Assembly (NCBI GenBank): GCA_001442925.1
Contig: LDXX01000006.1
Coordinates: 1 to 64,000, forward strand
Origin: Candidatus Kryptonium thompsonii
Lineage (GTDB): Bacteria > Bacteroidota > Ignavibacteria > Kryptoniales > Kryptoniaceae
Length of the DNA stretch: 64,000 nucleotides
Reading direction: 5' to 3'
The notes beneath the pieces were generated by a model that saw nothing but the letters and a program-made list of their open reading frames with translations, was not told the DNA's origin and did not search any database. Of this stretch, positions 49,456 through 52,594 are shown one piece after another (position 1 is the stretch's first letter; every line of letters starts with the position of its first letter). The position numbers and the translations under genes are program-made.

Positions 49456-49492
49456 AATTTGGTTTTCCCCACGACAAGGCTTGGAGCTTAAG

Positions 49493-49585
49493 ATGGAATT
49501 TTTAGTTTTCAGCAGACTTAAGGAAATCAATTTTGAAGCTGTTGATCATGAAATTGCTTTACTATCACCAATAGCAGGAGGATAA
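49493..49585 (+). pseudogene. moaD: MoaD remnant with internal deletion (30 residues)
   Basis: An intact 30-residue frame with a GGAG site seven bases before ATG. It begins like MoaD (MEFLVFSRLKEI, compare the family's VLFFAxxREL start) and ends like MoaD (DHEIALLSPIAGG). The ending includes the C-terminal Gly-Gly that is thiolated and inserted into MoaE. About 50 central residues of the ubiquitin-like fold are missing, in frame. The product could not fold like normal MoaD, so I call it a remnant, though the start, stop and tail are preserved. Its GGAGGA codons also provide the ribosome site for moaE. Confidence 0.7.
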
Positions 49586-49590
49586 TCAAT

Positions 49591-50028
49591 ATGGCGGAGA
49601 ATTTGAAATATATAACCTTTGAAAGAATAGATATAAACTCTACATTGGATGTATTCACTGATGGTTTTCCTAAATGTGGTTCTGTGGTGATCTTTGAGGG
49701 GCGGGTAAGAGCTGATAAGATTGATGATGCGGTGGTTGAAAAAATAATTTATGAATCGTATATTGAGATGGCAGAGAAAGAGTTTGAAAAGATAGAAAAA
49801 GAAGCGATTGAGAGGTTTGGAGTGGAGAAGGTTATAATAAAACACAGAATCGGTGAGGTAAAGGTTGGGGAAGTCGCTTTGCTTGTTGCGGTTTTGTCGG
49901 CTCATAGAAAAGAAGGATTTTCAGCAATTCAATATGTGATTGATGAGGTGAAGAGAAGAGTTCCGATATGGAAAAGGGAAATTTTATCTGATGGAAAAAC
50001 AAGATGGGTGGAAGAACACGGTCATTGA
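49591..50028 (+). CDS. moaE: Molybdopterin synthase catalytic subunit MoaE
   Basis: A 145-residue MoaE that converts precursor Z to molybdopterin using sulfur from MoaD. Motifs are GSVVIFEGRVRAD, YESYIEMAEKEFEKIEKEA, KHRIGEVKVGEVALLVAVLSAHR and the catalytic-lysine region VPIWKREILSDGKTRWV. It follows the moaD remnant by five bases. Since the local MoaD is truncated, MoaE must use a MoaD from elsewhere to work. Confidence 0.96.
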   Translation: MAENLKYITFERIDINSTLDVFTDGFPKCGSVVIFEGRVRADKIDDAVVEKIIYESYIEMAEKEFEKIEKEAIERFGVEKVIIKHRIGEVKVGEVALLVAVLSAHRKEGFSAIQYVIDEVKRRVPIWKREILSDGKTRWVEEHGH

Positions 50029-50093
50029 TTGATGTCATATCTTTAAGGTTATTAAGTTTGTACCACATAAAGAGAAATAGTAAAGTTTGAATT

Positions 50094-50828
50094 ATGGTTT
50101 TAGCTATTTTTCTTTTTTTCCTAACTGCACTTGTTTATTCAATGGTTGGGCTTGCTGGTGGAAGTGCATATGTTGGGATACTCGCATTATTAAATACCGA
50201 CGTTCGTTATATACCTTCAACCGCTCAATTTCTTAACATCGTTGTAGCTTCAATAGGTTTTTTGAATTTTAAAAAACATTTTGATAAGAGGAAGTTTAAA
50301 CTTATTGTGCTTATCTATTTTTTAGGAATCCTTGGGGTAATTTGGGGAACGGAGATCGCCTTAAAAGAGAATGTATTTTTCATCGTTCTTGGGGTTCTTC
50401 TTATAACTTCATCTTTGGTGACATTTTTGAAAAATTATATTCCAAGGATTAACTTTAGGTTAAATCATTCCTTTCTTCCTGTTATAAGTTTCATTTTAGG
50501 TTTTTTAACCGGTCTTTGTGGAATAGGTGGAGGAATTTTTCTTTCCCCTATTTTATTTTTTGCGGGTTTTCCAGTAAAGGAGATAGCAAGTATAACGACC
50601 CTTTTTATATTTTTAAACTCCGGTGTTGGATTTGTTAAAAATGCTATTGTCGGAAGAGTTGATTTTCTCCTTTCTATTTCGCTTGGTTTTGTTGTTGCTT
50701 TGGGTGGTTTTTGTGGCTCTTACCTTGGTTCATCAAAATTGAGTTCAAAATTACTTGAAAAAATTCTCATATTTATAATTGCAATAATAGGAGTAAGGTT
50801 GCTATGGAAAGGAATAACATCTACATAA
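50094..50828 (+). CDS. TauE/SafE-family membrane permease
   Basis: A 244-residue protein with about eight membrane segments and the family features of sulfite/sulfonate or uptake permeases: GLAGGSAYVGILALL at the start and the mirrored second half SFILGFLTGLCGIGGGIFLSPIL. It lies between moaE and moeA and overlaps moeA by 25 bases. A role in moving a sulfur or oxyanion compound linked to molybdoenzymes is possible but unproven. Confidence 0.9.
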   Translation: MVLAIFLFFLTALVYSMVGLAGGSAYVGILALLNTDVRYIPSTAQFLNIVVASIGFLNFKKHFDKRKFKLIVLIYFLGILGVIWGTEIALKENVFFIVLGVLLITSSLVTFLKNYIPRINFRLNHSFLPVISFILGFLTGLCGIGGGIFLSPILFFAGFPVKEIASITTLFIFLNSGVGFVKNAIVGRVDFLLSISLGFVVALGGFCGSYLGSSKLSSKLLEKILIFIIAIIGVRLLWKGITST

Positions 50829-52000: not shown

Positions 52001-52594
52001 ATGATGGTGAAAACTACTGGTGCAGTTTTAGCTGGAGGAAGATCGGAGAGATTTGGAAGTGATAAAAGATTTTTCAAGTTTGGCGATAAAACATTGATTG
52101 AAATCGCTTGTGAAAAGATTAAAAATTTTGATGAAAAATGTTTATCTATTGACAGGGGATTTGACATTAAAAGTTTGCCAGAAGTTGCTCATGACTTTAA
52201 GGTGATAATAGACAAGTTTGAAAATAAAGGTCCTTTGGTTGGAATATATTCTACGCTTATTGAAGTGGAAAGTGAAGGCTGTGTATTCATCCCTGTAGAT
52301 ATGCCCTTGATTCCTGGCGAATTATTGAATTATATGGCTAATTTTACGGGGTATGATGTTATTTATTTGAAAAGTGGTGATAGGGTTTATCCATTACCTG
52401 GGTATTATTCAAAAAGATTGGTTGCTTTAATTGAGAGAAACATAAAGTCGGATAAGTTATCACTTATGGAGTTGATATTTAAAGGCGAAGGTATAAAAGC
52501 GTTGGAGATAAGCTATTGGGATTTAAAAAAATTCGGTGAGCCAGATAGATTCCTTTTGAATGTGAATAAGGTCGATGATATCTTGGGGATATGA
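52001..52594 (+). CDS. mobA: Molybdenum cofactor guanylyltransferase MobA
   Basis: A 197-residue nucleotidyltransferase that attaches GMP to molybdopterin to make the guanine-dinucleotide form used by DMSO-reductase-family enzymes. The nucleotide loop GAVLAGGRSERFGSDKRFF and the metal-binding CVFIPVDMPLIP are clear. It begins immediately after the moeA stop and ends the cluster. No moaA, moaC or mog gene is in the window. Confidence 0.92.
   Translation: MMVKTTGAVLAGGRSERFGSDKRFFKFGDKTLIEIACEKIKNFDEKCLSIDRGFDIKSLPEVAHDFKVIIDKFENKGPLVGIYSTLIEVESEGCVFIPVDMPLIPGELLNYMANFTGYDVIYLKSGDRVYPLPGYYSKRLVALIERNIKSDKLSLMELIFKGEGIKALEISYWDLKKFGEPDRFLLNVNKVDDILGI

Follow-up and report, generated by a model that had tools for sequence, protein, structure and literature searches.

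A 30-codon moaD remnant, probably a pseudogene, in one of two diverged Moco operons of Candidatus Kryptonium thompsonii

MoaD is the sulfur-carrier subunit of molybdopterin synthase (PF02597, TIGR01682), and in E. coli it is charged by MoeB through its ubiquitin-like fold. The moa and mod genes of East Asian Helicobacter pylori have been lost piecemeal, with a truncated moaD and otherwise intact genes in strain P12 (PMC3120642). The organism considered here is a Kryptonia-group bacterium from a hot spring, and Moco genes are not mentioned in the main text of the Kryptonia paper (PMC4737851). The window, a stretch of 64,000 nucleotides from its genome, contains a short open reading frame directly upstream of moaE that was compared with intact moaD genes on contig C3 of the same genome and in two members of the same genus, G001 ('Ca. 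Chrysopegis kryptomonas' JGI-23) and G006. The features of the locus, including comparisons with a further Moco set on contig C10, are as follows.

49493..49585, + strand: moaD remnant ORF, 30 codons plus TAA, from alignment to the intact moaD of C3, G001 and G006
49493..49528, + strand: first 12 MoaD codons, MEFLVFSRLKEI against MKVLFFGRLKEI in C3, from the alignment
49529..49543, + strand: junction zone, codons NFEAV, not confidently assignable to either side in the alignment
49544..49585, + strand: last 13 MoaD codons plus stop, DHEIALLSPIAGG against NDEIALLPPIAGG, from the alignment
49577..49582, + strand: GGAGGA, the Gly-Gly codons and ribosome site of moaE, 8 nt from its ATG; same overlap in the intact C3 and G006 operons
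49591..50028, + strand: moaE, complete, one of two in the genome (Pfam PF02391, 112.8 bits)
50029..50093, + strand: 65 bp gap where, by comparison, the relatives have moaCB (about 0.9 kb there)
50094..50828, + strand: TauE/SafE-family transporter (PF01925), in the same place in G001, G006 and C10
50804..52000, + strand: moeA (Pfam MoeA_N, MoCF_biosynth and MoeA_C)
52001..52594, + strand: mobA (NTP_transf_3; NCBIfam best match MobA, below cut-off)

The reading frame runs from an ATG at 49493 to a TAA at 49583-49585 and its product is MEFLVFSRLKEINFEAVDHEIALLSPIAGG. Local alignment of 49456-49590 with the regions of intact moaD in its own genome and in the two congeners gave scores of 75-77, compared with a maximum of 51-56 from 100 base shuffles each, so that the likeness to moaD is not due to chance, and the earlier note, which had read the frame as a MoaD remnant with its start and Gly-Gly tail in place, is borne out. 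The Pfam and NCBIfam models did not recognise the 30-mer alone. The Gly-Gly C-terminus following a hydrophobic-Pro stretch is present (...ALLSPIAGG), as is the adjacent moaE, with the stop of the remnant at 49585 and the start of moaE at 49591; the full beta-grasp (ubiquitin-like) domain of about 75-85 residues is absent from these 30 residues. Relative to the 75-aa moaD of C3 about 135 bp, or 45 codons, are missing in frame, which agrees with the in-frame loss described earlier although not with its size, put then at about 50 residues. The exact junction of the deletion can only be placed to approximately 49529-49543, the divergence of the intact copies being too great for more. Just 5' of the remnant, between 49456 and 49492, 13-14 of 24 bases resemble the end of moaA at small offsets (shuffling p of about 0.005-0.01), which is suggestive only and may be what is left of a lost moaA.

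A search of the genome (18 contigs, 98.5% complete) with PF02597 (ThiS) gave two complete carriers, at C3:329737-329955 and C6:95273-95533, and one further partial match, which is part of a 736-aa frame rather than a small carrier. The first of these is a 75-aa MoaD, scoring 63.5 bits with TIGR01682, just below the cut-off of 66.15, in a cluster with the order moaA-moaD-moaE-moaCB, where moaCB is a moaC-moaB fusion gene. The suggestion that another copy of moaD exists was therefore correct, the C3 gene being complete and accompanied by its own moaA, moaE and moaCB, and with the C6 carrier also present MoaE is not left without a MoaD. Both moaD and moaE are represented at C3 and in the window. 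As the genome (G000) has a single moaA and a single complete moaC, the window copy has lost these genes or never had them. The second carrier, which is SAMP1/MoaD-like and lies about 31 kb past the window, is situated between JAB-type protease-like and ThiF/MoeB-rhodanese genes, downstream of a cysteine synthase-like gene. With these putative neighbours the cluster, at about 93.8-97.0 kb of C6 (cysteine synthase-like, JAB protease-like, SAMP1-MoaD-like carrier, ThiF-rhodanese), resembles a carrier-dependent cysteine or thiolation pathway, and the ThiF-rhodanese gene near 96 kb is a candidate MoeB-type gene. As an alternative to the C3 MoaD, this SAMP1-like carrier could be the partner of the window MoaE.

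The locus was compared in relatives, as had been proposed. Two of the six congeners have moaE (G001 and G006); in G001 the genes form one unit, moaA-moaD-moaE-moaCB-TauE-moeA-mobA, with a full moaD, and in G006 the same joined order extends through moeA, again with a full-length moaD. Here the single operon of the relatives is divided, with moaA-moaD-moaE-moaCB on C3 and remnant-moaE-TauE-moeA-mobA in the window. An intact source gene for the remnant is present both in its own genome (C3) and in the relatives (G001 and G006), and no comparable 30-mer or short form of moaD was found in the six congeners searched. A scan of genome contigs for other strains gave no matches beyond G001 and an Opitutae bacterium.

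The window operon has retained moaE-TauE-moeA-mobA together with the two ends of moaD, and is without moaA and moaCB. A moaCB remnant between moaE and the TauE gene was considered and rejected, as alignment there was no better than with shuffled sequences. The window MoaE is 68% identical both to the C3 copy and to that of G001, and a dN of approximately 0.21-0.23 in these comparisons, with dS above 1.7 and so saturated, points to strong purifying selection on the gene. The PF02391 domain is present with the catalytic Lys, Arg and His known from E. coli MoaE, the alignment retaining ..VR.., ..HR.. and ..VK..VPIWK... In a MoaE tree the copies from the window, C3 and G001 group as a trio of unresolved order (support 54), which would fit equally well with a duplication within the lineage and with gain of the second copy from a relative. 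Each of the four Moco operon copies seen (the window, G001, G006 and C10) includes the TauE/SafE-family transporter. No ModB scored above the NCBIfam cut-off in any of the genus's seven genomes, so the predicted cargo of this transporter may be molybdate or a sulfur oxyanion.

The genome contains a third Moco set, at 1-7453 of C10 on the minus strand, behind a molybdopterin oxidoreductase/4Fe-4S/TorD-like operon. In this set a 15-codon mobA start runs into a start-less moaCB, followed by the TauE gene and then by a moeA split by a frameshift. The frameshift adjoins a run of six G, where a sequencing error is possible. To judge from its genes, the C10 copy is more decayed than the window copy. 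Taken together, the window and C10 sets indicate a pattern, within this genome, of redundant Moco genes being lost piece by piece.

The best explanation of the 30-codon frame, to which a probability of roughly 87% is given, is that an in-frame deletion of some 135 bp took out the middle of a redundant moaD and left only its ends as a pseudogene, in one of two Moco operon copies that have diverged from each other. We infer that the remnant has no protein function. The full-length MoaD of C3 would then supply the sulfur carrier in trans for either MoaE, that of the window included. The C3 operon would make MoaA, MoaD, MoaE and MoaC-MoaB and the window operon MoaE, the TauE/SafE transporter, MoeA and MobA, which together would amount to one full Moco set with MoaE twice.

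In favour of the pseudogene, 5 of the 16 positions constant in three intact Kryptonia MoaDs are changed in the remnant, compared with 5 of 60 in the MoaE next to it (one-sided Fisher p = 0.03, uncorrected, for a small sample), and the intact MoaDs show no such excess of changes at constant positions. Against it, the remnant has retained its start and stop codons, its reading frame and its Gly-Gly. Variation is also tolerated at two of the tail positions that have changed, as LSP and DH are found in intact MoaDs of the phylum. The last 13 codons differ from those of C3 by 7 synonymous to 3 replacement changes, so that for the greater part of its history selection has acted on the tail as protein; the counts may also be compatible with selection on the 25 codons of the remnant today. 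The simplest history, given the small sample, would be long selection as a full gene, then the deletion, then a spell of relaxed change.

The ribosome site, the stop and the neighbouring moaE are all retained, with the GGAGGA 8 nt from the ATG, the TAA in place and moaE intact. The Gly-Gly codons do overlap the moaE ribosome site, which the earlier note had offered as a possible reason why the end was kept, but this is not special to the remnant. In a survey of 20 moaD-moaE junctions, about 8, including those of the intact C3 and G006 operons, have GGAGG-containing Gly-Gly codons a few bases before the moaE ATG, a rough count that takes the start of moaE as the first ATG after the stop. The arrangement is thus a common one and the overlap is most likely older than the deletion. 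It could nevertheless be the reason for the survival of the tail, which would have lasted through the GGAGGA serving moaE or for no other reason than that the deletion happened rather recently.

The same overlap, in the intact operons as at the other junctions, is consistent with the short frame being kept as a translated leader, in which terminating ribosomes would load moaE by translational coupling at the GGAGGA and the peptide itself would be idle. The TAA and the ATG of moaE are 5 nt apart, the GGAGGA is 8 nt from that ATG and the ORF is still in frame. However, an in-frame outcome has a one in three chance anyway, the GGAGGA would serve moaE even if the ORF were not translated, and the remnant is known from one genome alone, so that there is no conservation of the ORF to point to. 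We consider this unlikely; if it were true, a former protein would have been reduced to a translational control element that sets the expression of moaE.

There is only a slim chance that the organism does have the middle of moaD and that it was dropped in sequencing or assembly. The remnant has diverged from all of the intact copies, and the longest exact match of the window operon is 16 bp with the C3 cluster and 14 bp with C10, so collapse between copies during assembly is not credible. A dropout of 135 bp would also leave the missing moaA and moaCB of the same operon unexplained, and their absence speaks for real rearrangement and loss. That the 13-residue tail acts as a minimal sulfur carrier for the window MoaE, as had been raised earlier, is very unlikely to the point of dismissal: although the part that inserts into MoaE is kept with its Gly-Gly end, the fold used by MoeB for charging is mostly gone, positions constant in intact MoaDs have changed, the congeners lack a short form and the genome holds a full MoaD.

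With the pseudogene as the preferred reading, this Kryptonia genome has its Moco operon in diverged copies over two loci, one half of which has a gutted moaD and lacks moaA and moaCB. Beyond annotation the sole lesson is that moaD can leave a fossil in the form of a short in-frame ORF before moaE, and that the Gly-Gly codons of moaD are often the ribosome site of moaE.

The remnant shares with MoaD its start, its Gly-Gly end and its place directly 5' of moaE, but differs in that about 45 of 75 residues are missing and neither Pfam nor NCBIfam gives a match. The C3 cluster is a diverged paralogue of the window copy with the same moaD-moaE order and the 68% identity in MoaE given above; unlike the window copy it is complete, adjoins genes for a molybdopterin oxidoreductase, a Rieske protein, cytochrome b and a multihaem cytochrome, and is without TauE-moeA-mobA. 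The case is one of ordinary decay of a redundant gene, and piecemeal decay of Moco genes is already documented elsewhere. The likeness to H. pylori lies in this piecemeal loss, a truncated moaD included (PMC3120642); there, however, it is a single set that decays, whereas here it is the redundant second set, the first being complete.
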